DNA of 64,000 nt from Thysanoteuthis rhombus. Lineage: Eukaryota > Mollusca > Cephalopoda > Oegopsida > Thysanoteuthidae. How positions within the stretch are numbered: the stretch's first letter is position 1; the number at the start of each line of letters is the position of its first letter. Below the pieces are notes generated by a model that saw only the letters and a program-made list of their open reading frames with translations, did no database searches and was not told where the DNA came from. The stretch spans positions 28,411,597 to 28,475,596 of the forward strand of contig OY735215.1 in assembly GCA_963457665.1 (NCBI GenBank). Reading direction: 5' to 3'. This document shows, one piece after another, positions 5,955 through 47,891 of the stretch. A program made the position numbers and the translations under genes.

Positions 5955-6840
5955 GGAACAAAAAAAAAATGGTGCTGCAGCAATGATTATAGAATCTAAC
6001 TTTTGGCGGGATAGCAGTATTACACAACTAAATCAAAAACTGTATCTTTAAGTTGTTACACATGGAATGTTAGTTTTTTTCTTGTCATAGAGAATAATGC
6101 TAAAAGGGAAAAAGATTTACGAATGTAATTGCATTTTTTTGAAGATTCCATGTAAATACGGATGTAATCAATAATTTTTTTTAGGGGAGGTGAGATGTTG
6201 ATTAATGGTGTCTACTCGAGAAGTTGGACAATTTTCAACTATAATTTCGAATGGGGATATAATGCTGCTCAAGCTGCTGATAACCTCAACAAAGCATTTG
6301 GAGTGTACACTGCTACACAGCAGACTGTTCAGCATCGGTTCAATAAGTTTAGGTCTGGAAATATGAATACCAATAATAAACCTCAAGGGAAGCCCAAACC
6401 TATTTTTAATGATGAAGAATTATCCAGGGCCGTGGCCAATGGGTCATAGTTTGAGCACTTTCCGGAGACTTTGAGATTTCAACAGCAACCATATCACACC
6501 ATCTCAAGGCAACTGGAAAGTTGGAAAAAAATGAACTGAATGAAATACTTCGTGACAGTACCAGACCACACACCGCTCAGCTGACTGTCTAATCTTAGAA
6601 ATATGAAGTCTTGCAGCATCCTCCATATTTACCTGACGTTTCTCCAACAGATTATCATCTTATAGGCATTTGGAACTTCATATCTGTAGTAATAAAGCCA
6701 TAATTTGTCCTACTGTATTTATGACCAGTAAACCTGAAGAATTTTATAGAAATAGCAATATTCAGAGGATCATTGGAGAAAGATTATTGCCTAGAATGGG
6801 TTATATCTTGATTAATATTTAGTTTTTTATAGTCAATATC
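5955..6840 (+). mobile_element. Mariner transposon remnant
   Basis: 6195-6449 encodes a Mos1-like N-terminal helix-turn-helix domain: YNFEWGYNAAQAADNLNKAF, TQQTVQHRFNKFRSGN, then a GKPKP linker and DEELSRAVANGS. After a large internal deletion, 6605-6690 encodes VLQHPPYLPDVSPTDYHLIG, the region holding the catalytic Asp near the C-terminus. The leader at 6020-6180 is shared with fragments near 1.6, 3.2 and 35.4 kb. Non-autonomous and decayed. Confidence 0.85.
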
Positions 6841-22916: not shown

Positions 22917-23140
22917 TCAGGATTGGTCCACAGCCATCACTTCCATAGTTGTTACACCCGAAGAATCTACATGCCCAATTGACGACAGGTGATTGTCATT
23001 CAACGTCTGGTGTGACGTCAGTTCACCGTTATGGTGATGTTGGTTTACTGAAGCAACGCGATAATTTCCCTGATTATTGATGTCTGTGGTCTTAAACGTG
23101 GTAATGTTATGGAACATGGAGACAGGGAAAGAGACAAGAC
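22917..23140 (-). CDS. NRF1: NRF1 terminal coding exon
   Basis: The acceptor is a long pyrimidine tract ending CTGCAG at 23141-23146. Two bases complete a Gly codon, then 73 codons and TGA at 22917-22919. It begins LVSFPVSMFHN, matching the vertebrate LVQIPVSMYQT, and ends with MEVMAVDQS, comparable to VEVVTLEQ. The middle is rich in His, Asn and Ser and diverged from vertebrates. Confidence 0.93.
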
Positions 23141-30186: not shown

Positions 30187-33100
30187 GTGTGTGTGTATGT
30201 TTATGAAAATATTTTATACATAATGCATTTGAATCAGATCATGTTATTTAAACTACATTTCATAAAACTAAAATGGTACTGTAAAAGGTTTTAGAATATA
30301 ATTAGTTTGAGTGATAAAACCAAATAGAAATTAGAAAAAAAGCAATATTATTAGGATCTTATGTAAGTAAACATATGTAAAATTTACTTAAACAACATTG
30401 GATTGTCTTTTTGGATAATTCCAACCAAGAAAATATAGTTTCAAAATTTTATGCATCAACCCTTTCCAGACTGAATTCATTTCTAAGTTTTACCAATTTT
30501 AAGGTAATCCATTTAAATTTAAATTCAATTCGTGAGCTATAAATAAGTTGACCCCTCTATACCATATATATTCTGGCGGGATTATGCTCAAGCGATATGA
30601 TAAAAGGATATTTATTCATGAATATCTGATTTTGGTTGTTTTCATGGAAACTGAATGCAATAAAATTGCTGAAACTGAGAATATAACTGTAACAGATGAA
30701 GTTGTGATAAATTGTAACAATTATGAATCTGAATCATATGTAACAGTAAGTGTAATGAATTCTAATAAAACAATAATTTCCTCACATTAAAACTCTGAGT
30801 TAAGAATGGTCTGCAAGGCTTCCTGAGCATTCGTGAATCTATGCCTGGTGGTCATGGGATTGAAATTCAACCATATCACTAATTTTAAAGCACGCCTCTG
30901 CTACATAGAGGCCACCATATTGCTAGAGCAGATCTAATACCCTATACCCCTCTGTGACAGATTGGTATTATTAAATTTGGTCGTAAAACAAACGCACAAC
31001 CAGAACTGGCCAGTCTGGAAAGGGTTGACTATAAATTCAAATAAAAGTAATAAAATTGCACAGTTTCCTTTTTTGTTATTTTAGAGTTAGAAGTTACAAA
31101 TTGTTCCAAATTTGATATTTACCTGTTGATTATGCATTAAAATTTATCATAGATATTTTAGTATCTGCAGCTTTTTGTTTTTGTAGTTATTATTATTATC
31201 ATTATTATTATTATTATTATTATGAAAAATTACCTGCAGTCTGAAATTCTTCATTATTTCTGAATGTAATATAGGCAAAATTTGTTTTTTTCTGAGGAAT
31301 CAGCAATTGGAAGACCAATGTCTTTGTGACATAACTGGGCCATTGTAATCGGTTCCTCTTTCACAATGGTTTCTGATTTTATCACACCCTTATCAGCTCG
31401 CATAATTTCTGGCACCGAATTATCAGCCCAGTCCACCGACTGCACTATCCACTTGCCATCAGTTAAATCGACCAGGCACTTTCCTACAACAGTAAAATTA
31501 GGCTTTGTTCAGAGAGACAGTTGAAGAGAGATGAATAGTGATGGACAGAGACAAAGAGAGATGGGATATGGTGACCAATAATAACAGAAGAAGAAAAAAA
31601 GAAGCGGTAAGCACTAAATAGGAGCATAAAGATAGTAATAGGTAGCCTTTTTTATTTATCCATTTCCTCTCTAGGCTGAAGTCTGGAATATTCAACAGCA
31701 TTACCAATCTTTGTACGAAGTTCTGAGATGTACAATTATCATTATTATACACAGATTTACTCGGACAATGAAATCTACCTCCATGGATTGAATAGAGAGT
31801 TTAGTTTATAATTCTCAGCAGAAAAGCAACAACAAACAACAGCGGATACCTGAAAAGGCCCGAGGAAACAATGGCAAAAAAATGGTGACAATAACAACCA
31901 AGATGAAGACACTATTCTGAGTAAATCAGTGTGTAATAAGCATTAGCAATCTTTTCAAAATAATGTATCAAAAATAAAAAAACAAAAATAAATTTTTTAT
32001 AAAAATTAATATGTTGAAATCTTTTTATACAAGTCATTAGTGATCTTTGACAATCTGGATCGAAGCTGTAATTGCTTGAACAATCTTATAAAATTGAAAT
32101 GAAAAGTAGTGACTATTGTTATCTTTTTTACTATTTTCACTTGAATCAAAATTACCCTTTTTTCTTCATTCAGATTAGTTTTTTTTTATCCTTCAAAAAA
32201 AGAAAGCTGATGAAGGTTTTGAACAGTAAAATATCTAAGTTTGAAAATGAAATCATTAAGACGAATAAAAATGATCAAGATTCTATATTCATTTGACACA
32301 ACACTGCAATCCACCAATTAATTGGGACTAGAATTTTTATCACAACATTGAGACTGAAACATTCTTCAATGGATGCAAATGCAAATATACACCAAACTGA
32401 CCAGCACATAAAGAGACAGCAGACCTAAATTTCTTTCAACATTCACATCATACACGGGATAATCTCTTTTAGTCATCTCCTATCCAACATAAATAATAGT
32501 AAAAAGCATCTTGTGTCTTTTCTTGAAATTGTACCTTACACAGTGTAGACTGCTAGCTGTAGGGACTGAATTCTTTTCTTCTTACTTAAAATGCTTCAGG
32601 AGATGAACTGACACTTGCAGACCTCAAAATCCTTAAACCTCTATTCTATTACTAAAACACTGAACACAAACAAATCCAGAAAAAATCAAAAATTTTGTGG
32701 ATGAAGTAGGGACTTCATTTTAGAAAGTATCAACTAAACTGGCACCAAAACTATCAACATAGGTTTCTTCAGTTTTCAAGTGAGTCTGGCCAGATAGCTA
32801 TATATTCATTGCGTATACAAGCCGTACTGATGGTGCTAGAGAGCTGGAAATTCAAACATTTATTTCTTATTATGTGAAGAAAAATATTTTATTTTTTGAA
32901 AATCCCCATACTAAAATTATTCCAACATTTACTCAAATATAAGACAGGGATCTGATTGTGATATGAACCTACTGGTACAATTAATAATAACTATTTTAGA
33001 AAAATGAAATTGATTTTCTACATCATTGTTTTTTGCAAAGGTAAAAATTGTTCATTTATTAATGTATTCAATTAGGCAAAAAAAGTAACTCTGGACTGAT

Positions 33101-34673: not shown

Positions 34674-34737
<64 letters not shown>

Positions 34738-37700
34738 TGAATTATAAATTGCATTATATTATATAGAAACTTATCTGAAATGATTTCCTGTCATTACACG
34801 CTTAATATATCATTCAATTTAGACAACATGAACAGAATGAACAATTGAAGAAAATGGGACTGCTGCAGGAATCAAACCTACTACCGATATGTAGGCGAGA
34901 ATAAATGAGATGAGAATTTGGGTCGAAAGCAGTTAATCAGCCTTTGCCTTATCAGTGGAATGTTTAGCACAATGACAAGTACATTGTGACATTGAAGCAG
35001 CTACATATCGGTAGCAGGTTCAATTCCTGCAGCAGCCGCAATTTATAATTCATTTTGTTGGACCAAAGTATCCATTTCTTAAAAACATATACATATATTT
35101 TATTTAAATGAAAATCATTTGAAACCTCTTATAAAAAGGTACCTCACTCCTTTCAACCACCAGATGAGGTTTTTTTTGTAAATAAACCTATTTGCAGAGT
35201 TGAGCAACATTTCATCTTACATATTTATCATTAAAACAGTTTACACACAATGAGTTCACTATAAAATGCCGACCCAACTGTTGTCTTCTCAAAACCTACA
35301 GCTAAATAAAGAAGTGCATTCTTTTCTCAATTCCTAACAGTAACTTCCAAGTTGAATGGTATTCAAAATTAGGCTAAGCATCATTTTGTTACAAATGATA
35401 TGTATTTTTTTTACATCATAGAGAACAATGCTAATAAAAAAGATTTAGTAATGTAACTGCATTTATAAGAGAATTTCGAACTCTCAACTACTCGCAACAT
35501 CAACCAAGCATTACGGGAAAACTGTTCAGCATTGGTTCAATAAGTTTAGATCATGAAATATAGAAACCAATAATAAATCTTCAGGGAGGCCCAAACTTGT
35601 TTTTAATAAATTATCAACAACAGTGTTTAAGCTTAGAGGATTAGGATGTGAAGTCTTGCAGCATCCTCCATATTCACCAGACATTTCTCCTACAGATTAA
35701 GATATATTTTCATAATTCGTGCTCATGGTTCATATTTTGATTGAATACATACTATTTTATGAAAGAAATGGATACATTACACTTTATCTTACTATAGAAA
35801 TTAAAAAAAAACAAACATTTCATATGTAATAAACTAATAGTTACAGCAGTTCAGAGTTTGAAATTCAAACAATGTCGCTGACTGTCACTAGTACAGTAGT
35901 AGTTCAATCTTAACCTCAGTTTTTGACATTGCTTGCAAGACATTACCGTTGGGAAAGATACTAATATACTTTCTTAATCTTTTCCTGTGTCATACACCCA
36001 AAATGTGGATAATTAAAGTTTAATCAAATAAGAGAACTATAGTAATTACCATATTTGATAGCATATAAGACACACATTTGAATAAATAAAAAACATCACA
36101 GTTTATCAAATGCACTAGTATTATGACTAGAGGGCCATTAACTGAAGCTCAAAATGAACAGATATGGAGCTTTAATAATTTACAGTGGGCAGTAGTTCCC
36201 CAAATCATGTGTTTTATAGGCTGGCAAATATGGCAATCACTAACCTCCTCTCAAAATTCTGTTAATTCTCTCACAAAAGCTATTAGAGAAGAATGATTCA
36301 ACTAATAAGTTACTGATTATTTTTCTGATAATCCAAGTTGATATACAATTTACATTTTTACATCACAGCCTATTTAATTCTATTGAAAAGAAACTACCAC
36401 AGAATATTCCTAACTTGAGAAGTTAATGAACAATAATACAAATACTGCATTAAGGGCTATATTGAGGTGCAAGTGGCCAAGCCTTCCTCACCTATAGGTA
36501 AACAGCACAGTAGTCCAGTCTCCTCAGCTTTATTTGGCAACTATTCTGGGAGACAGAAAACTCTGAATTCAAACTATTAGCTAGTTCTATACCCAAGTAA
36601 AGCAAAAGGGTTGGGCGTGGGACTCCTACTCGTAAAACCTATTTGCTACAGTAACTGTAGCAGCATCACCCCAAAAAGCGTAGTGTGTTTACAGCTCCAT
36701 GTTCCACATTAGGGGCTATATAATATCGAATAGATCTGAAACAAACAAACATTACTCATTCAATATTGTTGAATGAAAAATAGAAAAGCAGTAAGAATAT
36801 TGCTAATGAAATGAGATTTCCCTATGCATATCAACTGAAAGTCTAGTAACATAACAAACACTGCAGACACTTCTGGGCCTATGGTTTGTTTTGTGGTTTC
36901 ATCTGCTGAAACTGCCAAATCTACCAAGAATCCAGTAAATATAGTAGATACAATGTAACAATGATTAAGGGAAGGATTAGACAACACAACACATTAATAA
37001 ATCAGATGCAAACAAATGATCAGCACAATTTTATCACAAACATGCATTCACATAAAATACCTTTGAAGCTGAGAACACACAATACCAAGATGTTCATTAT
37101 TGAATCCTTGTCAAGTAACTGCTAAGAACATTTCTGATAGTGTGAGAATTAGGTTTTATAAAAAAAAATCTTTTCATTAGAGCTGAAAATATCAATGAAG
37201 TAAAATTAAGTTACTGAAAATGAAGATGGACATCTGCTTCAAGTGCTTTGCACAAAGCTGATATCAAAACTAGATGATTAATATGGTTTGATAAGATTTC
37301 ATAGAGAACTTTCTATCACACTGACATCTCCATAGGTTTCTTAGTGCTGAACACCATTTCTATTAGTACTGACCATTCTTTTTCTTCTATTGAAGAATAG
37401 ATAGAAAATAAAATCATTTTTCCATCATCTCTTAGGATATTGATATCAATATTGAACTGTGTAACCTCAATTTTTTTTTATTTCTTAAGATGAATAGATT
37501 ATGGCAAGCAAGACTAGTTTTTGTTGCCACTCAAAAAGATGAATCCTTTTGGCAACTGGATCTGGAAATTTTTCAATTGATTTGAATTGAAACAAAAAAT
37601 ATTTACATTGTGAATACTTCAGTAGACACAGATGACTGAACTGTGAGTAATAAGGATAACCACATTAGCTTTAAGCAAACAGACAAATACTGAGATCTTA

Positions 37701-40700
37701 GACAAGACTTTCAATCATAGATCTTGGGTATATTAGTGATATGGTTTTGTTATAGGAAAGACAAAGAATACCAAAATGTCATAAAAGAAACGCTATTCAT
37801 ACTTATTATTATCTATTATCTATTCAAACGATAACCAATCAAGAATGACAGAATTTTGGCGATTAAGTCTCACAGCTATTTCAAGTGGAAAAGTTACCAA
37901 TGGTTAATGAATCTAAATTGAATTTGATAAATCTGATATCCTGTAAGCTCTTAAATTCCTAGATTTTGCTTTCACACCAAATAGTATCAGGATAGCACTG
38001 CAAATGAAAAGAAATGTAGCCTGAATTTTTAAAATGCATTTATATAGGTATGATCCAATTTCAGGTTATAGCAAATGTAAAATAAGTAGTGAACAGTGAG
38101 AATTCAGAGCAAAGAAGTAACTTAACACTGCATTCCCTTTATCCTAGAACAGAGAAAATTCCAAGGATAATCATACCGAGAGAAACAGACTAATAATCAA
38201 TAGAACAAATGATCTACAAAGGTATGAAACTATTGCTCATGAAAAAGTGAATATCGTGACAGACAACACAAACACACAACTATCTACTTACCACCTAAAG
38301 TTGTAGGATCTCCTGTTAATATAATCTGACCATCTTGATTTACAGTAGCTTCAGCTAATGTTGCAACTGCGTGTGCATCAGAGTCTGAATTCATTTCAAC
38401 GCGCACAGGCGTAGGCTGTCCAGTACCTGTCGTTTCCATATGTGTCGCAGCATCGGCCAAAGTCTGTACTGCTTGTGTCGCTTCTTGCTGATGGTTTTCG
38501 GGCACCTTTTAATAAAACAAACCAAAATAAGAACATGGTAATTCGGTTGTAGTTGGCAAGGAACTGGGGAGGATCAGGCTAGCAGTTACAAACAGGAAAA
38601 ATTACTGTTTTCATTTCTATAGACGGACTAACCACTTGGAACCAGTTGACAAGTTTGTTTTTTTTCCAGATTTAACTGCACATATCAATTTTTGACTAGT
38701 ATTCTCTTTCATCTTTAGTTGCTTTTTATCTCAACTTACAAGTGAAAAATTGTTCAAAATAATAGTTAACAACACTTCATCTAATGAAAAATGAATAAAG
38801 ATAATATTACCGCTACTAATACTACTAGTGTAAAACCAATATCAAATACGGAACCAAGAGAGATAAGGAAAGAATCAACGATACATTTGAAGATTATGAT
38901 TTTGTTGCTCAGTCAATAAGAGCAGCTGGTACAATTAAACAAGCTTCTCTGAGGCAAAATGATGAGCGTAAGTTTCAATGAGAGCTTTTCCTTTACTTCT
39001 GATTTGTGCTGTTTACTCACAGCTGTAGACTGACAGCCTGAAAAAGTTGCAAGACATTTCTTTGTCCTCGGGCAGCTGACAAGATATGTCTTGAGAAATT
39101 TATTTTGTCCAAGAGTGGCTGACAAGATATTTCACTGATGTAGTTGCACATTGATATTGATAGTATATGAAAAGCTGGAGGGGAGGGGAAATTCATGCTT
39201 TTTTGAAGGGTATTAGCGCAATGTAATCACATACTATCCTAGCCAGAGTTTGAAAGTAACCACTACCAAAATTTTTTAAAAGATTTATGGCAATAAGACA
39301 ATGTTTGTATATCTCAGAATTTTTGAGATGAGGTATTATTATTATTTCCATTAATATTCGGACCATCCTCATCTTTGTTGTTTTTCATACAACGTTTCGG
39401 CCGTTGCACTCTACGGTCTTCATCAGGTAACATCTGGGAGATTTTTGGGAAGTAACGAACCGAACCCTTTATTTATCCGACGGGGGTATATCGACCGTAC
39501 TCCCCTCTTTTAGCGTTAGTAGTATTGTTATACTGCCTCACACTAGGATCGAACCTAGTACCATCAGATTACTTAACAGTAATTTGTCTGATGCTGTAAC
39601 CACTGCGCTATGTAGAGTGCAACGGCCGAAACGTTGTATGAAAAACAACAAAGATGAGGATGGTCCGAATATTAATGGCAATAAGACAATGTTTGTCGGT
39701 CGGTCATAAAATACGAATCCACCAATGGATGACAACAATTACTTACAGCATGAACCACAGTCGCTTGTGTCCCATCAGCTAAAGTAACCACAGAAGTATT
39801 ACCAGGTGTCCCTGTATCAATCTGAATGATAGATACTGTCCCATCAGGATTATTGATGGTCTGGACCATGGTGCCTGAGTATTGATGAGGAGGAGATGCG
39901 TGATTCTCTTCTGTGAATTCTGGCAACATGTCTTCACGTCCATGATGCTTATAACAGTTTTTGACTATCTGCCTCAAGGCATGCGTCCACGATACCTGAA
40001 GAGGAAATAGCAAGGAATTACTTTATAAAAATGTTGGTGTATAAAGATACTTGAGAAATTTTATTCAATCAATTTTTTCTTGGGTGCGAATTATGCTTTA
40101 ATCTTCAATTGAATTCTTCCGACAATGAGCAAGCTCATATACCAAGAATTGAGCTTTTACGCAAAAGTAATTTTTTTTTCACGACAAACATTATACTATT
40201 TTATTGTAATAAGAACCAAAATTAGATATTTGAAATATTTCAATACATCTTGAAACTTAAAAAAAAGTCAATGATGATACCAGCTTGTCACATGAAGTTA
40301 TTAAAACAATACAGAATTTAAAATCACTTGCTCAACTTTCTATCTAGGGTAAGACAATACACAACCATGGGTGCCCTGCTATGAGGAAATGGCTAGCAAG
40401 CTGGTTTTGCAGACCATTACTACTGAGTAGTGAGTTCAATCATTACAGGGTGCCCCATACTTGTGGCCTTGTGCCAAAACTAAGCTAAACTCACGAAATA
40501 ACTAAGATTCAAAACCAAATGCACTACTGAATACGTTCAAACACTGTTGCTGTGTTTTTCAAAAATGATAAGGCTACTTCGAAGATTACCAGTCATAATA
40601 AACACCCGAGGAAGGCTAAAAAACATAAGGCAAAATGTAAGGCATAAAACAACCATGATTAAGATACTCATGTGAATAATGTACGGAATGAATAAAGTTA

Positions 40701-43700
40701 CTTTGATTGACCTATATTTCAAAAAAACTATACAAGACATTTTCAATTCTCAGCATCAGCCATAAGAATTCTAGAATAGGAGATATTTAGCAAACTTACT
40801 TTTCGTTTTTCTTCTTCTGATCTTGCATCACTTCGAACATTGGCCCAGGGCACATCGTCAGGCCACCATACTGGTCGATATTCAGCTTTACCCCAGCCTG
40901 GCTTACTCCGACCTGTTGAATATTTTAACATTTCTGGGATGAATGCACGAAGTTGGGCCTGCAAAAACAGATAAAAAAATCATTGTCAGTTATTGAACAG
41001 GTAACTGTACTTCTGAGTTTGGGATAATAGAGGTATCCCCAGGTTTTCAATGTTTTCTTTTTACCACTTTTTGGTGAAGAGTGAAAATAGTGCTCAGGAT
41101 TTGTTTTGCAGTGATCCTTTGTAGAGGCAGTGCACACCTCCTTCCTCACTCCATTCTGCTGTACCTACTACCTTGCCTACCTTTGACGGCTCAGCCTAAC
41201 GTACAATCATCACCTGGGGGAGGGGTCAAGGAATGCTTGAAAAATTTTTCCGTAACAAATTATTGGTCAAATTGCTTCTTTGCTTTATGCCATTTCTTCT
41301 CATGACAAATTTTTATAAGAACGCAATATTTTTGGAAAGTGGGGGGTATCTACAAAAGTTACAAGACAGGACAAATTAGTCATGATCGAAAATTGGAAAG
41401 AACAAGAACGAAAATATGAAAAAAAAGTTAGCTATGCTCATATCCTCGAATAAACAGATCTGTCTTGATCTCACTAAAGCTGTTGCAATGTGAATCATCG
41501 ATATCATAAACACAGCAGGACAGAATATTAGGTCACGTAAGCAAAGTGTGTATAGTTAAATCTTCTAAGCTTTCTGAGAAATTCTCCTTCATCATGAAAA
41601 TTTGTGTTCTTTTATTATCAGATTGTGCCCCACCTAACCACAAAAAAATGAAATCATCAAATATATGAGTTCAAGTAAAATGTGATCAGTGTAGAACGTA
41701 GTTTAATTGAGTCTTTTCAAAAACCATAATGAAATATCTGTTTTGTGTTACGATAGTGCTTTTACTGAAACAGTAAGCATCCTCAAGTGGGTGGTTTTCC
41801 TTCTAAGAAATATATATAAAACATTCCAAGTTACAAGACGGAAAAAAAATCGAATCCATAGCTGCATAGCTATGATTAGAGGCTGAACTCAAAATTTTCA
41901 TACATAAATTATTGGGTGGGCTAAAAAGTTTGTTCTGCTTCAATCATTAGCTGACATTAAAAGTAATTAGTTTTAACTGATTTAGATAAAAAGATAACTT
42001 TTGATTTGCATTGTGACAGCTGTCATATGAGTTTGCATTTCTTCAAAAATTCTGTCAAAATTGGCATATTTTTGTGTATTGAAGATGGCAAAACATAAGC
42101 GACATTTTTTGCCTGTTATGCTTTTTTTATTTTAAGAAAGGTTAGAAATGAGACTCAAATGCTTAACAAAACAACATTTGTGCAGTTTATAGACAAAGAA
42201 ATGTAAATGAATGAACATGTCAAAAGTGGTTTGCGATATTTCACGCATGAACCAGTTGGGGTTGATAGCTATCTACTCAAAATATAATCGATATTATACA
42301 ACCAGCTTGGTTGTTAGTTGCTTTGTTGTGACTTGCACATAAGATGGAAAAAAAAAAAAAAAAAAAAAAGCTCCACTGGACCATATTGAAATGTTTTGTT
42401 TTTTCTAAACAAATTGTGACAGGCAATGAGGAATGGATACTTTACAACATAGAATGCAAGAGATTGTGGAGCAACTGAAATTAATTACTATTAACCATAC
42501 CAAAAGTTGGTCTTTATTCCCAAAAGATGATGCTGTGTATAAGGTGGGATTGGAAGAGAGTCCACAACTGTGAGTCCATTCCACAGAGCCAAATGACTGA
42601 TTTCAATCAGTGATGCTTCCAATTAGACATATTGAAAGGAACAATTAATGAATGCATCCAGACTTAGTTAAGAGAAAAGTCATAATATTTAATCAGGTAG
42701 AATTAGACCGCATGTTTCTTTGATGATCAGGCAAGTAATTTTTTTATGCACTAGTATACTTTCAAACCACCTTAAAGACATTAATTATATTAAAGGTTCA
42801 TGTTTATTCTTGGAGGGGGAAGAATTAAAAGAAATTTTCAATGATCAGCATCCCAGACACAATAACAATAGCATAATTAACTGATGCCTGCCTTCAATCT
42901 TGACTCAAAATGAGAAGTATGCTTGTGAAGAGAAATGTGGGCACAAATGTCTGAACAATCAATGACATTGTATGAAAATGTCCATAAAGGACCTGTGGGA
43001 TAATTCATAACATGAAGAAAGGTCCCAAGGGTTAGGGTTATATTTTTAATAAATTTCATACACATTGAAGGTAGAGGCACAGAACTGTACAAGTGCTAAT
43101 TTTTAAACTCTTGCTGATTACCCTAACAAACATAGCCTTCTTTTTCAAATCCCACATTGGCCAAAAGATGAAGAAGAGCTTTAAAACTAGGCATTAAATG
43201 AGAGGAAATCAGGGAAATACATTTATTTGTTTTCAAATATTCTCTGCTGAAATAAAAGGGGAGGGGGTACATGCCATCAAATACAGTAGTTAATCGATAG
43301 AAATTAAAACGGACAGCCACTCACCTGAGTCATTTTGTCAACAGGTGTTGGGATGCCATCAATAACAAGGCGGGGAAGTTTGTGCAAATTAGGGTCTTCC
43401 TGTTGGGATGGTGGTGCTTGTTGGGCAAGTGCCGATTCCAAATCCTGCATGATGATACCTTTTGAATTCCTCACCTGGTCACAAAACAGAAAAAAATAAA
43501 AATTAAAAATTGAAATTAGTCTTATGTTACAAAGACAATCCAAGAATAATCTGACTAAATAAATTAGATGTTTCCGGCTTGAATTTTTTGCTTAGTCTTC
43601 CTCATGCTAAAGTTTTATATTCTTCAGTTTGGGAAAGTTACCAGATGCCAGAGGCTATATGATAATTTCTATTTTACTTGACATTTTCATAGTTATATAC

Positions 43701-46700
43701 AAGTATATATAATATATTATATATATTAGAAATAGTCAACCAAAACTGTCAAAATAGGTTTTTTCAGTTTTCCAGTTGGTCTAGCTGGCTATATATCATG
43801 CAAACAGACTGCATAGATGGAGCTAAAGGGACAAAATCTTCAACATTTACTCTTTATTATGTCTAGAAAAAAAAAGTCTTCATTTTTTAAAAAAATCCCA
43901 CCAATATGTTTTCAAAGGGGGCTTCAATTTACAATGAAAGTTCATGCCAAATTGATCCCTTAGTCTATGTCCAGCGTTCACATTTGTTTTTTTGAAAATT
44001 CAGACTTTTTTTAGTGATCACTGCCCAAGAGAAGTGTGGTGAATCCTGGGGAAGGTTTATGTCCAATGACAGACGATTAAAGATTGATGATGATGATGAT
44101 GATGCCCAACAAAAGGTGAGAGAAGTAACTTATCTATTGATCACCTCTTTTTCCAATTTTTTAAATAATCATAACGTACCACTAAAAGACGCTGGTCATG
44201 TAATGGTTTCTACTGAGTGACTAACCAGATCTGTATCTATTATGGTTGCTTGGTTGCACGCGTCTTATAAATGGCCAAACAGTTGGACCCTGAGGGCTGA
44301 AAATTGGTCTATAATGACTTGCGGATGAACATAGTATTGGTGGGACTGACCTCTAAAATCACTAGAGATCACCACAGGTCAATTTAAAGTCAAAACTGCT
44401 GAAAGGGACATATTTTTACAAGACACAACATCAAGTGGAAGTGCCTTGATAGTAGGCATATGTCTATTGTATGTAAACATTTATTTATTTCTGAAAAATA
44501 TCAGGGGCCGAGCAGTTAGCAGCACAGAAGATGGAATCTACAAACAAAGTTAAAACTCAAAGATAATCTGCATTCAGTTTTTACTAATGCCCAAGGGAAA
44601 AGTATGAATAAGAATAAATGATGTAAATGACATTGAAAAAAATCTTAGATTAAAAAGACTTCTCATACAGTAATTAGACAAATAAGTACAGAGGTCGTCA
44701 AGTCAAGAACATCTGACTCTCTGAAAACTCGTAATATGAACAGACTGCTATAAAGTAAGGTTGCCAACTTGGCCAGTTTCTGATAAAATCTGATGGATTT
44801 TTCCTCCAATTTAACTGATAAAAATTTTGACATTAAAATCTAGCATATTTTAGCTATTTTTCAGTACTGTTTTAATCATAAATAAAAAGCTATTTTTTCA
44901 AAAATCATGTTGCAGACAACAGTTTGTAATAATGAATGGTGCACTACTTTGAAACAAACATCAAAACATTGAGCGTTCTTCAGAGGTTCCTAGGCTCAAG
45001 GGATAACTACACTGTTAGCATTTTCCCCTCGTGATCACAACTCAAAAAATAATTTTGATGCAAGTGATGGTGATATGAAAAACAGTCATGTTAGAATGCT
45101 CATTTGACATAGATAATCCGAACAGCATGGAAATAAAGCTACTTGTACATAATGATATTACAAATGTAAGATATTCACCATACGGCACTATTCCAACTCA
45201 CATACAAATCCAACTTACAATAGGCCTAGGAACAGAACTCATTCTTATCCTGGGAACTTCTTGTGAAATATTTAAAAAAAAAAAACGAAGATATTTTTTG
45301 CAGTTGATTTTTAAAAATTCCAAGCCCTTTAGTTATTTATTTATGTTTACATTTCTGTGGATTTACATGAAGGTCAAAAAGAACTATTTTATCAATTGAT
45401 TGGAAGCAACAATTCTGATAAAATCAATATTTCCAAATCAACTGAAGATTGTCAGCACCTTTTAAAGCAATTGATAAAAACTATAGTGACTCATGTGATT
45501 TAATTCCTTTTAGATATTTAGAAACCCAGGCAAGGCAAGTTACTTCAGCTAGTGCATACAGCTGTACCTTGGAAGGGGTTACTGCTGAGTTAAAGACCAG
45601 AATTTGAAATGCTGACTTTCAAGGTAAGCATGGCATCCCCGTTCATTACCCCAATCTCCCCAGTAAATGTACAAATATACATCTAAGTTTTGATATTAAA
45701 GGCATGGAAAAAATATATACAAACAGAATAGGTCATTGACATTAAGGGATGCACAGTGTAATGGCACAAATAAATGACAAATAAGAACCGTAAAGATAGC
45801 AGAAGATTGTAAACATACGACAGTTTCTAAAGGCTGTGATCCAAACACTTTGAAAGACTGGTAATGCTGATTAGGTTTCCCTGGAGTGCAGCATAGGACC
45901 ACAGCTTGCTGACCAACACGGGTTGAATATTCTTCAATAATAGCACGCAACTTTCTACAAAGAAAAGAAATAAACAAAAGAAAGTCAAGTTAATCCTGAC
46001 CAAAACATTTTGAAAACAAATTCAAATCCTCAAAGTAAAATAAGCTTCCAAAACAATGAGAGAAAAATCAAAAAAGTTTATGAACCCATCATCTGCAAAT
46101 AATGGGAATATCCATTTTATCGATGGCAACTCAGTTCTACCTGTGAGTCTTTTATCTTGCAATGGATAACTATTACTCTTCGCCACCGGCCGCAGTTAAT
46201 GGGTTAATCTACTTACCTGAGAAGTCTCGTCTGTTGTCGTCGTCGTATGGATGGATTGGTTTCAAAACTGTGCATCCGTCGTCTTTTCCTACTCGTTGCG
46301 ATAGCAGCTGCAGCAGCCACACCAACTGGACCTTCAATTGGAGAAACACAAATCATAATTAGATAACTCAATAGACCATAAAGTGTAAACATGTTCTTTA
46401 ATTATTTCAGTTGTATATTTCACACATCAAATGTTACCATGTGTTTGGAGAAGAGAGGGGGAAAAGTGGTTAAAACAATCTAGCTTTGAGTCAAACTTCT
46501 TAACATGATAATACAACACAATCAGTCTTCCCTGATGTCTTCAAAAATTAGAAGGGTTCATGCCAGTTTTGTTGTGAAAATAAAACCAAAGCAGCATTTA
46601 GCCCTACTTTCTGTAGCAAAGTAATATCTCTGTAAAATAGTTAAATATTGCAAGTATCTTTTAATCGATTTGTTTTTTTTTAAAATATTTTTTCCACACT

Positions 46701-47876
46701 AAAAAGTTGAAAGTTTGGGGGAATTGTTCAATTCTTTCTTCAATTTTAATGCCTTTTGAGAAAATGGTATTTCTTGTAAAGATACCTTCAGTATTTGAGA
46801 TGAGCCATGATCATTCTAAGAGTCTTGGAAAAGCATCTATTAAAAATATTCCTTAAATGCATTCGTGCTAGGAACAAAACTAACATCAACAGATACGGCA
46901 GCAGACAAATTTATATGCAATAATGACAATCAGCGACACTAAAGGGTTGAACACATTTGTTTTGAAGGTCAAGAAATTGAGACAAGAGAAAAAGGATTTT
47001 AGCCAAGGTTATATGGAATATTAAAAATGAATGGTACTTTGTTATCTGTATGCCACTCATTGCATTCTGCCATTTCACCAATTCTCATAATCAATCTGCA
47101 TTTTGTGTGTTAACTCATCTCAGCCAGGAGTGCACATAGGCACTCTTGAAATTTTGTGACACACATGAATGAAATGCCTGAATATAGCAACCATTTTGAA
47201 TATAAAATGAAGTCACATGACACATCTGTATAATTTTGCCTTAAATAAAATCCATATCTTATAACCTTCAAAATAATATACGACTTCTGATCAGGTTATG
47301 TCCTTGTCACCCCCCAAAAAAAAAACTAGGCCTGAACGAGTTAACTTCTGAAGCTGCTATTCATTACTATTGAACTGTAGAAATGCTTCCAAATGCTATC
47401 AAGGAGTCACTGGAGGATCCACTGTTTACTCAGATTATTGACAGGATTACTCCATCTAAGAATTGAATGCAGCAGGTTTTCATGAACCACACATATAATT
47501 TTATTGAAAATACAAAAAGCGGAACAGAAGTGGGGATTGTCAAAATAGAAGAACAAAATACACAGAGTACCACCAAATAGATAAATAAATAGAAAGAATG
47601 CTAAGATTTTGTGACTGGCTGAATTAAAAAAAGGGGTGGGCGAAAAGAAGATAACTGACCAGCTGCAGCAAGTTGGGCCGTGACGTCATCGTTCATCGGA
47701 CTGGTGAGTAAATCAGATTCATCAAAATGGGCACTCTCTTGCGAACTGGATTCGCTTATGTCATCGCTCAGCATACAGGAGCTCATGGGGGATGTGCTAA
47801 TGGTTGTCATTCCACTCACTGCTGCTCCTACTCCTCCTCGCACTCCCACCGCGGAAGATGGTCCTGAACTGTTCAT
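22917..47876 (-). CDS. NRF1: NRF1, nuclear respiratory factor 1 (erect wing / P3A2 family), spliced CDS
   Basis: Sequence-specific transcription factor that binds paired GCGCA half-sites as a dimer and activates nuclear genes for respiration and housekeeping. Eight minus-strand exons (47660-47876 coding part, 46217-46331, 45819-45954, 43325-43474, 40800-40958, 39747-39995, 38292-38505, 22917-23140) join with matching phases into 1464 nt, a 487-residue protein; human NRF1 has 503. Order: acidic, Ser-rich N-terminus (res. 40-72, ending DVTAQLAAAG), basic nuclear-localisation cluster RKRRR (res. 87-91), then the DNA-binding domain with the family signatures TRVGQQAVVL, DGIPTPVDKMTQ, IPEMLKYSTGRSKPGWGK and PWANVRSD, then a C-terminal activation region with AHAVATLAEAT and FPVSM. 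All introns are GT-AG. The reading frame stays open upstream of the chosen ATG to the exon's acceptor, so a further N-terminal coding exon is possible. Identity is from recalled family sequence, not a search. Confidence 0.96.
25057..25481. mobile_element. MITE, CAATCTCTTATC family, copy 2
   Basis: Left TACAGGTACACAATCTCTTA; right, read inward, TACAAGTACACAATCTTTTA. The ends match those of the element at 12 kb and both copies continue after the end with an AACTAAAAAG-type stretch, so they are one family. It is in the last NRF1 intron. Confidence 0.65.
26340..26830. repeat. Duplicated (TA)n plus flank
   Basis: Two (TA)n tracts (about 26364-26410 and 26690-26730) are each followed by a copy of the same sequence: TATGTCCAACAGAATGTGAT near 26429 and TATGTCCAACAGAATGTGAC near 26772, with similar sequence on both sides. 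The tRNA-like SINE head lies between them. Confidence 0.65.
26520..26625 (-). mobile_element. tRNA(Lys)-like SINE head
   Basis: The minus strand reads TTAGCTCAGTCAGTAGAGCA, close to a tRNA-Lys D arm with A box, followed by a degraded B box about 45 nt on. It lies between two duplicated (TA)n blocks. Confidence 0.5.
27890..28300. repeat. Possible LINE 3' remnant
   Basis: A GC-balanced 400-bp block unlike its surroundings. A stretch near 28105 reads KRGSPETT.QRTMMPELEVM in one plus frame, loosely like the end of an RTE-type reverse transcriptase. Too decayed for a firm call; an unclassified repeat is equally possible. Confidence 0.3.
28370..28410. repeat. (CA)n and (TA)n microsatellite
   Basis: CACACA run followed by TATATA, directly adjoining the palindromic MITE at 28411. 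Confidence 0.9.
28411..28633. mobile_element. Palindromic MITE with about 70-bp arms
   Basis: The arms share AACTCAAGAGATA(A/G)GTGTTA and CATCTCAAAATTT in opposite orientation. The left side abuts (CA)n and (TA)n tracts. No coding sequence. Confidence 0.7.
29575..29770 (+). mobile_element. tRNA-derived SINE
   Basis: The head GGTAGTTCAAGTGGTAGAGC is an A-box region. The body GTGCTGTTTTCTAATGGCCA ... AAACACAAGTCAAAAATTGA matches the SINE at 3.6 kb. Confidence 0.55.
30136..30196. repeat. (TA)n with (GT) edge
   Basis: Two TA blocks separated by a single C, followed by GTGTGTGT. Confidence 0.9.
30456..31028. mobile_element. Non-autonomous DNA element with 18-bp perfect inverted ends
   Basis: TCAACCCTTTCCAGACTG at the left is exactly complementary to CAGTCTGGAAAGGGTTGA at the right. 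The CCCTTT start with TTAA-like flank resembles piggyBac-type short elements, but no clean TTAA duplication is seen. An 80-codon open frame inside (30548-30790) has no recognisable domain. Confidence 0.6.
31187..31221. repeat. (TTA)n microsatellite
   Basis: Repeated TTA with one C interruption, just beyond the donor side of the optional NRF1 exon. Confidence 0.9.
31234..31483 (-). CDS. NRF1: Probable alternative NRF1 exon giving a different C-terminus
   Basis: An acceptor (TTACTGTTGTAG) at 31484-31485 and a donor-like GTAATT after 31234 bracket 250 nt on the NRF1 strand, inside the 15-kb last intron. Read in the phase left by the previous exon it stays open for 230 nt, then meets tandem stops TAA TGA (TAA at 31254-31256). 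The product would be a 489-residue protein with a 76-residue tail in place of the normal 74-residue one. The tail contains GKWIVQSVDWADNSVPE and two adjacent SUMO-consensus motifs, IKSE and VKEE. As 250 is not a multiple of three, inclusion cannot be frame-neutral. It could also be an alternative last exon without using the donor, or, less likely, part of an unrelated gene. I do not recognise this tail from vertebrate NRF1. Confidence 0.6.
32735..32910 (+). repeat. Dispersed repeat, copy 1 of 2
   Basis: ACCAAAACTATCAACATAGG, TTCAGTTTTC, GTCTGGCCAGATAGCTATAT and TTCAAACATTTATTTCTTAT align along about 170 bp with the copy at 43.7 kb. No tRNA-like head or inverted ends were seen. Confidence 0.55.
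34378..34599. mobile_element. MITE with the same ends, different interior
   Basis: TACCATATTTTATGGCATAT on the left and, read inward, TACCATATATAACTGCATAT on the right match the ends of the 8-kb family, but the interior is unrelated. It is probably a sibling family mobilised by the same transposase. Confidence 0.5.
34677..34736. repeat. (TA)n then (CA)n
   Basis: Alternating TA followed by ACACACACAC; it abuts the foldback element beginning at 34737. Confidence 0.95.
34737..35053. mobile_element. Foldback element made of two facing tRNA-like ends
   Basis: Outer inverted repeats ATGAATTATAAATTGC (34737-34752) and its complement (35038-35053) are perfect. Inner arms of 35 bp (34860-34894, 35001-35035) are nearly perfect, and each contains a B-box-like motif (GGTTCAATTCC, and GGTTTGATTCC on the opposite strand). 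Two copies of a tRNA-derived end thus face each other. A (TA)n tract abuts the left side. No coding sequence. Confidence 0.6.
35350..35800 (+). mobile_element. Second mariner remnant of the same subfamily
   Basis: It shares the leader (GAGAACAATGCTAATAAAAA, then GTAATGTAACTGCATT) with the 6-kb copy, then keeps a short helix-turn-helix piece (VQHWFNKFRS-like) and VLQHPPYSPDISPTD. The internal deletion is larger than in the first copy. Confidence 0.75.
36047..36235. mobile_element. MITE, TACCATATATG family, copy 3
   Basis: Left end TACCATATTTGATAGCATAT. The interior has TATTATGACTAGAGGGCCAT and GGCAGTAGTTCCCCAAAT as in the copies at 8 kb; the right end is a diverged inverse of the left. It lies in the last NRF1 intron. 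Confidence 0.6.
38292..38505 (-). CDS. NRF1: NRF1 exon, activation region with AVATLAEA repeats
   Basis: 214 nt, phase 0 in and phase 1 out, donor GTAAGT. It encodes two related motifs, ATQAVQTLADAA and DAHAVATLAEAT, followed by GQIILTGDP; the second matches vertebrate NRF1 closely. The phase-1 end fits both the distal terminal exon at 22917 and the optional exon at 31234-31483, making this the likely branch point for C-terminal splicing. Confidence 0.95.
38755..38990 (+). repeat. Dispersed repeat with SINE-like part
   Basis: AGTTAACAACACTTCATCTA, GATAATATTACCGCTACTAA and ACTACTAGTGTAAAACCAAT recur in diverged form near 3461, 4708 and, inverted, 29245. A tRNA-like TTGCTCAGTCAATAAGAGCA follows at 38903, so this may be the junction of two SINE copies. 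Confidence 0.45.
39287..39696. mobile_element. Foldback element with tRNA-like core and 22-bp direct repeats
   Basis: Two near-perfect 67-bp inverted arms (39348-39414 and 39612-39678; ends CCATTAATATTCGGACC) flank about 200 bp. The minus strand of this core has a tRNA-like RNA polymerase III promoter: A box TAGCGCAGTGG (39600-39610) and B box GGTTCGATCC (39546-39555). A 22-bp sequence beginning ATGGCAATAAGACAATG occurs at 39287-39308 and again at 39675-39696, like a target-site duplication. The minus strand also has CTGATGA ... GAAAC (39426 to 39394), the two conserved arms of a hammerhead ribozyme core. Penelope-like elements are known to carry such motifs, but no coding remnant is seen. 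Confidence 0.7.
39747..39995 (-). CDS. NRF1: NRF1 exon, end of DNA-binding domain and activation region
   Basis: Exactly 83 codons, phase 0 at both ends. VSWTHALRQIVKNCYKHHGR closes the DNA-binding domain. NNPDGTVSIIQIDTG and the Thr/Val-rich ADGTQATVV segment belong to the glutamine/hydrophobic activation region. An inverted-repeat element ends about 50 bp inside the intron that follows this exon in transcription order. Confidence 0.95.
40372..40500 (+). mobile_element. tRNA-derived SINE in an NRF1 intron
   Basis: A-box-like ATGGCTAGCAAGCTGG and B-box-like GAGTTCAATCA at tRNA spacing, then a GTGCCCCATACTTGTGGCCT body. It has no intact tRNA fold. Confidence 0.45.
40800..40958 (-). CDS. NRF1: NRF1 exon, core of DNA-binding domain
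   Basis: Exactly 53 codons, phase 0 at both ends, acceptor TTTTTGCAG and donor GTAAGT. It holds the most conserved part of the family: AQLRAFIPEMLKYSTGR, KPGWGK, WWPDDVPWANVRSD. The basic and acidic run at its end (SEEEKRK) leads into the VSW of the next exon. Confidence 0.97.
41919..42610 (+). mobile_element. Mariner transposon remnant, different subfamily
   Basis: It begins with a mariner-type end, TTGGGTGGGCTAAAAAGTTT. Transposase traces follow in order: KQIVTGNEEWILYNIECKR (family IVTGDEKWILYDN) near 42405 and KRMMLCIRWDWKRV (family KVMLCIWWDWKGV) near 42525, in frames broken by indels. A run of about 20 A at 42350 lies inside it. No right end was found. It lies in the NRF1 intron between 40958 and 43325. 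Confidence 0.8.
43325..43474 (-). CDS. NRF1: NRF1 exon, DNA-binding domain part 2
   Basis: Exactly 50 codons, phase 0 at both ends, acceptor GACCAG and donor GTGAGT. It encodes the DLESALA helix, a Gln/Pro-rich variable linker, and VIDGIPTPVDKMTQ, which is nearly identical to the vertebrate segment. Confidence 0.96.
43735..43905 (+). repeat. Dispersed repeat, copy 2 of 2
   Basis: CAACCAAAACTGTCAAAATA, TTCAGTTTTCCAGTTGGTCT and TTCAACATTTACTCTTTATT align with the copy at 32.7 kb. In an NRF1 intron. Confidence 0.55.
44505..44630 (+). mobile_element. SINE copy in an NRF1 intron
   Basis: GAGCAGTTAGCAGCACAGAA, AAAGTTAAAACTC (decayed B box) and TGCCCAAGGGAAAAGTATGA match the head and first body part of the 18.5-kb SINE. 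Confidence 0.5.
45819..45954 (-). CDS. NRF1: NRF1 exon, DNA-binding domain part 1
   Basis: A 136-nt exon with a TTTCTTTGTAG-type acceptor and a GTATGT donor. It encodes KLRAIIEEYSTRVGQQAVVL followed by the KPN/FKVFG/PLETV motifs of the NRF1 DNA-binding domain. Compared with vertebrates it has a short insertion (HYQS) between KPN and FKVFG. Confidence 0.96.
46217..46331 (-). CDS. NRF1: NRF1 exon, nuclear localisation segment
   Basis: This 115-nt exon runs from an AAG acceptor to a GTAAGT donor. It encodes the Ala-rich linker, the basic cluster SRKRRRMHSF (vertebrate counterpart GKKRKRPHVF) and the conserved NPSIRRRQQTRLLR at the entry to the DNA-binding domain. Phase 1 in and phase 2 out, matching its neighbours. 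Confidence 0.95.
47110..47344. mobile_element. Short TTAA-flanked inverted-repeat element
   Basis: TTAACTCATCTCAGCC at the left is matched by GGCCTGAACGAGTTAA at the right (imperfect inverse), with TTAA at both outer edges as piggyBac-type elements leave. It is in the first intron between NRF1 coding exons. Confidence 0.5.
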
Positions 47877-47891
47877 TGGATCTCTGTAAGG
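47660..47891 (-). CDS. NRF1: NRF1 exon with probable start codon
   Basis: The acceptor follows a pyrimidine run and CAG at 47892-47894; a second possible acceptor lies 8 nt further in, giving an exon start at 47883. The ATG is at 47874-47876 and the donor GTCAGT follows 47660 in phase 1. It encodes 72 residues plus one base: a Gly/Ser/Thr-rich leader, then the acidic serine stretch (SSSQESAHFDESD) that aligns with the phosphorylated N-terminal segment of vertebrate NRF1, then DDVTAQLAAAG. The leader differs from the vertebrate N-terminus. No in-frame stop separates the ATG from the acceptor, so the start is probable, not certain. Confidence 0.88.

Follow-up and report, generated by a model that had tools for sequence, protein, structure and literature searches.

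A candidate alternative C-terminal exon in the last intron of a squid NRF1 gene

The 15-kb last intron of an NRF1 gene, carried on the minus strand of the 64,000-nt stretch of DNA analysed here (the window), contains a 250-nt segment that is probably a real and coding exon. Its reading frame, splice sites and codon statistics further suggest, with marginally less assurance, that it serves this gene as an alternative C-terminal exon, whose inclusion would give NRF1 a different tail. NRF1 is a master regulator of mitochondrial genes and sets the level of the nuclear-encoded ones.

Results

Anatomy of the NRF1 gene and of the candidate exon

The NRF1 gene was recognized by its DNA-binding domain (Pfam PF10491), which is spread over several exons and includes part of E6, and the exon positions were set via translation (Table 1). 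E7 ends at 38292 with one codon base left over, and the canonical last exon, entered at 23140, encodes the FPVSM ending that a preliminary description of this DNA had reported. The same description had pointed to a 250-nt segment on the coding strand of the last intron, with an acceptor, a donor-like end and a frame in the phase of the preceding exon closed by TAA TGA, and all these elements were found at 31483-31234. The segment starts at 31483, directly after ...actgttgtag, and its frame reads G-KCLVDLTDGKWIVQSVDWADNSVPEIMRADKGVIKSETIVKEEPITMAQLCHKDIGLPIADSSEKNKFCLYYIQK before reaching the two stops, so that 227 of the 250 nt are open; after the TAA 20 nt of the segment remain, and after the TGA 17 nt, up to 31234, where the donor TGCAG/gtaatt is found. 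The acceptor phase matches E7, and an in-frame tail of 76 residues with its own stop results.

The two splice sites, scored with generic, untrained matrices, differed in quality. The acceptor is moderate, with a score of 6.99 against 4.2-16.8 for six known NRF1 acceptors, and 38 of the 747 AGs scanned in the intron, the candidate included, score at least as high, which makes its earlier qualification as good a somewhat generous one. The donor is strong, being itself one of the best 4 of the 821 GTs scanned in the intron. Some 10 nt into the intron past this donor there is a (TTA)12 microsatellite (window 31187-31223), and changes in its length could affect donor use.

Table 1 Coordinates of the NRF1 exons and of the candidate exon in the window
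Feature	Position	Strand	Basis
NRF1 N-terminal coding exon	47660..47891	-	translation and exon scan
NRF1 exon E2	46217..46331	-	translation and exon scan
NRF1 exon E3	45819..45954	-	translation; 3' boundary by eye; outside the 25 best of the exon scan
NRF1 exon E4	43325..43474	-	translation and exon scan
NRF1 exon E5	40800..40958	-	translation and exon scan
NRF1 exon E6 (last part of DNA-binding domain, first part of activation region)	39747..39995	-	Pfam; 3' boundary from exon scan
NRF1 exon E7, donor AGGTG/gtaagtag	38292..38505	-	translation, splice matrix, exon scan
Pyrimidine-rich 3' splice-site region preceding the candidate	31484..31580	-	visual inspection; acceptor scored at 6.99
Candidate alternative NRF1 exon (entered in phase 1, with its own stop and a 3' donor)	31234..31483	-	frame, splice scores, codon model, exon scan
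Coding part of the candidate exon	31257..31483	-	76-residue tail with the split codon
Tandem stops TAA TGA	31251..31256	-	read from sequence
Canonical last exon E8, coding part and stop (GLVSFPVSM...MEVMAVDQS)	22917..23140	-	translation

Frame length, site combination and periodicity

Since the window is AT-rich and long frames are frequent in it (175 stop-free stretches of at least 60 codons on both strands, known exons included), the length of the open frame was dropped as evidence for the candidate. A phase-1 acceptor followed in phase by an ORF of 75 or more codons and by a donor was found a single time in the intron, and 200 dinucleotide shuffles produced no such combination; it was also present in one of four real-sequence control stretches (start 59436, minus strand), the other three being devoid of it. 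The control segment in question (window 59436-59167, minus strand), with its acceptor, 85-codon ORF and donor, lies upstream of the first NRF1 coding exon and has a coding score of about zero. The three-base periodicity of the candidate was weak, 18.6% of the intron windows being as high. Amino-acid composition alone, judged against mean frequencies that were not trained, did not discriminate, with other non-coding ORFs outranking the candidate, and was discarded.

Codon statistics of the candidate

A first, small codon model built from the exons of NRF1 itself and used with 12 hand-picked control ORFs gave the candidate a z of 1.42 (p 0.076), which is no more than suggestive. Given this result and the weak periodicity, a second codon model was trained on kinase ORFs of the same genome. 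The longest ORF was taken from each of 25 loci, with 15 codons trimmed per end (10,599 codons), after excluding 5 of 30 loci (L034, L035, L037, L039 and L041) that had stops in the match. Under this model the candidate reached 0.189 bits per codon, with a z of 2.60 (p 0.0036), while the 15 known exon segments of both NRF1 copies of this genome ranged from 0.064 to 0.380 bits per codon and from -1.54 to 2.42 in z. Only 2 of the 716 stop-free shuffles of the candidate, out of 120,000 made, scored as high (p 0.0028).

The candidate was then compared with the 152 non-exon ORFs of at least 60 codons that remained of the 175 once those overlapping known exons on either strand had been removed. It was the only one to combine a score of at least 0.1 with a z of at least 1.5; three others had a z of at least 2, every one of them with a negative score. 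Ranked by best 75-codon score, the candidate came fourth, not first. The running codon score climbs at the candidate acceptor and drops at the stop, and is below zero over the last 25 codons. By the kinase-trained model, coding-like codon statistics are confined to the candidate exon, the weak periodicity and the result of the small model telling against this, and the codon signal is as frame-specific as that of the better NRF1 exons.

Exon scan of the window and of the paralogue region

Acceptor, donor and codon scores were summed into an exon score over both strands of the window. The acceptor had to reach 4 and the donor 6, and exons whose stop falls within the final 60 nt were admitted as a class; these choices were made knowing the candidate. 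Ranks 1 to 6 were taken by NRF1 exons and rank 7 was exactly 31483-31234, in the right phase and with a total of 29.6. The next totals were 28.1 on the same strand, with a codon part of just 3.6, and 26.6 on the other strand; E3 was absent from the 25 best segments of its strand. Among the 25 best segments of the NRF1 strand, the best other one inside the intron had 19.6, and none of 300 shuffled introns reached the candidate's score, the best one attaining 24.3.

A scan of the 63-kb region around the second NRF1 gene placed 6 of the 8 coding exons of that gene within the 12 best segments of their strand (E2 and E4 were missing). In that region, 29.6 was also exceeded by four segments, spread over three places, that do not belong to the NRF1 exons, and the exon score alone is therefore not specific. 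These four are GC-rich (50-55%) and have a composition-controlled z below 1.4. Eleven segments of each kind, non-NRF1 controls and NRF1 exons, were picked by hand from the two scans. A z of at least 2 was found in none of the 11 non-NRF1 controls (best 1.85) and in 5 of the 11 NRF1 exon segments, the candidate having 2.57. It is therefore the composition-controlled codon structure, and not the raw exon score, that carries the argument.

Copy number and relatives of the tail

No second DNA copy of the candidate was found in the 2.73-Gb genome at E <= 10 with a search that skips very common words, and no second protein copy of the tail at E <= 0.001; the only other protein matches were two at chance level (E 3.9 and 6.3). 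The single GC-rich control segment examined was also single copy, so that the uniqueness of the candidate argues against a common transposon and is no proof of an exon. The tail had no match in Pfam, no meaningful match in the PDB (best E 0.99) and, as expected, no relative among viral contigs and prokaryote genomes. A relationship between the tail and the NRF1 activation region was considered and set aside, since local alignment p values of 0.007 (E6 alone) and 0.02 (E6-E8) are unconvincing after several comparisons, and alignment revealed no homology to E8 of either NRF1 copy.

Two other elements were noted in the window. At 6168-6446 on the plus strand, a Pfam match to HTH_48 (E 7.9e-9) marks a piece of a mariner-type transposase, and the segment at 34674-34889, located beside a (TA)n tract, has several similar copies in the paralogue region, with up to 83.6% identity, and is probably an interspersed repeat.

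A second NRF1 gene in which no counterpart of the candidate was seen

A family search of the genome revealed a second set of NRF1 exons (C18:28804446-28813956, minus strand, loci L011 and L012), hereafter paralogue B, on the same contig and strand and about 345 kb from the window copy. The two genes share their exon order, 70-87% identity in exons E2-E5 and the phase in which E8 is entered. Their C-termini have diverged, E8 of paralogue B encoding GIMTIPVSVYQT...LKEEVPDATHAVEVMTVEQL, and the last intron of paralogue B measures only 1.0 kb. No counterpart of the candidate exon was seen in this short intron: when the tail was compared with the 63-kb region by tblastn, the six best matches all fell outside it, the top one having an E of 0.07 and a stop. 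The alternative exon would therefore be specific to the window copy, or lost in the other one. The single tail of paralogue B carries, in its canonical last exon, both the conserved IPVSVYQ and a SUMO-type LKEE-V-P. Counted from the exon start, this LKEE is at residue 42 and the VKEE of the candidate tail at residue 41; the alignment of the two tails is not significant.

SUMO-type motifs in the candidate tail

The preliminary description had called attention to two SUMO consensus motifs (psi-K-x-E) within ten residues of the tail, and both were read in its frame: IKSE at residue 35 and VKEE, followed by Pro, at residue 41. Depending on the motif definition, two such motifs at most ten residues apart occurred in 0.1-1.1% of tail shuffles, and two anywhere in the tail in 0.7-5.3%, for a motif that had been picked after reading the sequence. 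The canonical NRF1 of the window copy, as assembled, has none. In synergy-control (SC) motifs, as described, a SUMO motif has Pro or Gly at its flanks (PMC3554661). Of the likeness to them that had been proposed, the psi-K-x-E core is present; VKEEP taken alone satisfies the flank rule only by half, with a Pro after it but no Pro or Gly in the four residues upstream. Taken as a unit, the IKSE/VKEE pair has a Gly upstream and a Pro downstream.

Discussion

Several other readings of the segment have to be weighed against an alternative exon of NRF1. It might be a relict, once coding, or a splice decoy slowing the excision of the 15-kb intron, with no stable protein isoform made at present. The moderate acceptor, the fading of the codon signal in the last third of the segment and the lack of any counterpart seen in paralogue B would all suit such an origin, which we nevertheless regard as unlikely, given that the frame is intact from acceptor to stop, that the donor is intact as well, and that the codon signal is frame-specific like that of the better NRF1 exons. 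A chance ORF in an AT-rich intron, lying beside chance splice-like sites, seems to us slightly less probable still. The composition-controlled codon score (p 0.003-0.004), the z of at least 2 that sets the candidate and 5 of 11 NRF1 exon segments apart from all 11 controls, and the failure of 300 shuffled introns to attain its exon score speak against this explanation, to which the abundance of long ORFs (175 of at least 60 codons), the occurrence of the acceptor/ORF/donor combination in one control stretch, the weak periodicity, the four higher-scoring segments in the paralogue region and the fourth place among 152 non-exon ORFs by raw codon score lend some weight. Least probable of all, and very unlikely in our estimate, is an exon of a nested gene or transposable element on the same strand that has nothing to do with NRF1: the tail is indeed unlike the canonical E8 and that of paralogue B, and a mariner-type fragment exists elsewhere in the window, but the phase fits E7, the tail has no Pfam match, the genome holds no second DNA copy nor, at E <= 0.001, a protein one, and no other intron segment among the 25 best of the strand comes near the candidate's score (19.6 at best).

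A further possibility extends the reading as an alternative C-terminal exon and does not exclude it, namely that the resulting protein would be a SUMO-modified repressor form of NRF1 acting through synergy-control motifs. The close spacing of IKSE and VKEEP, rare among tail shuffles, would be in keeping with it, as would the absence of such motifs from the canonical protein of this copy and the Gly and Pro that bracket the pair, the SC motifs reported in PMC3554661 being flanked by either residue. On the other hand, the motif was chosen post hoc, VKEEP by itself has neither residue just upstream, and the activation-region exons E6 and E7 would be retained. Moreover, as paralogue B has LKEE beside IPVSVYQ in one tail, a C-terminal SUMO consensus alone does not mark a repressor form. 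We hold this extension to be doubtful, at about the same level as the relict or decoy, and the SUMO step to be a guess from motifs.

Returning to the alternative C-terminal exon, skipping of the candidate would join E7 to E8, and the protein would end in the family tail FPVSM...MEVMAVDQS. Because the candidate fits the phase of E7 and bears its own stop, inclusion would swap this C-terminus for the 76-residue tail, translation halting at the TAA. The included exon may be spliced on to E8, which would then be 3' untranslated sequence, or may end the transcript by means of a poly(A) signal in the intron. Of these two fates the strong donor makes the first more likely. The second is possible, the nearest AATAAA or ATTAAA that the coding strand offers past the exon being at 30616, about 620 nt downstream. 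The junction rule of nonsense-mediated decay is 50-55 nt, and a stop as close to the junction as 20 nt is not expected to expose the mRNA to classical decay. The product would be a DNA-binding-competent NRF1 that keeps E6 and E7 and has the end of its activation region exchanged. We infer that the candidate is spliced and that its tail changes NRF1 activity. In human NRF1 the activation domain comprises residues 305-503 (PMC6113564), and since E6 and E7 are kept, a loss of all activity is not implied. The splice switch of the preliminary description holds up as far as an optional coding exon is concerned, its own stop, its fit to E7, the codon statistics and the exon scan being concordant; a switch between an activating and a SUMO-repressible NRF1 is doubtful.

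Titles and abstract openings in the literature yielded no account of such an NRF1 exon. Testis-specific splice isoforms of vertebrate NRF1 are mentioned (PMC6719441). A precedent for an alternative NRF1 C-terminal exon comes from the Drosophila homologue erect wing (ewg), which has alternative last exons and is regulated through the last intron (PMC8904962; PMC11551757; PMC2643944), where ELAV blocks an intronic poly(A) site and the last intron is then spliced (PMC8904962; PMC11551757). Both cases concern the same gene family and the same place in the gene, and in the fly a choice in the last intron sets the end of a transcription factor transcript (PMC8904962; PMC11551757), whereas the candidate has a strong donor and its first AATAAA or ATTAAA only some 620 nt downstream. 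A motif scan of the intron for U5N2U3 found 23 of the 38 (overlapping) matches within about 1.8 kb of E8 and none between 31980 and 27352. An ELAV-regulated last exon of the ewg type, with a proximal poly(A) site and clustered U5N2U3 at the exon, was thus considered and rejected, and for lack of a U-rich cluster the candidate is not classed as an ELAV target.

An exchange of the C-terminus of a transcription factor by alternative 3' splicing is also described for the TR-alpha1/TR-alpha2 pair, in which the TR-alpha2 splice form has an antagonist action and isoform-specific SUMO sites are discussed (PMC9266318). According to that account, TR-alpha is a nuclear receptor in which a site inside exon 9 is joined to an additional exon 10, unlike a stop-bearing exon in a last intron, and its antagonism was tested. 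Removal of the activation region (residues 305-503) from vertebrate NRF1 leaves residues 1-304, an artificial, DNA-binding dominant negative (PMC6113564). In contrast, the candidate form would keep E6 and E7 and have only the last part replaced, so that full dominant-negative action is not implied.

It is tempting, if improbable, to generalize that distant animal phyla control NRF1 output through RNA processing in the last intron that changes the C-terminus. The squid version might use a tail whose tandem SUMO pair is absent from the canonical form of this copy, a motif of this kind occurring in the canonical tail of paralogue B, and splicing and gene duplication might together tune full versus SUMO-restrained activity. 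More generally, a splice choice altering the activation end of NRF1 would offer an easy means of adjusting mitochondrial output and, if fly ewg is a guide, the growth of synapses as well. Use of the exon, if it occurs, would point to last-intron control of NRF1 beyond flies and would provide a directly testable pair of isoforms in a genome with a second NRF1 gene.
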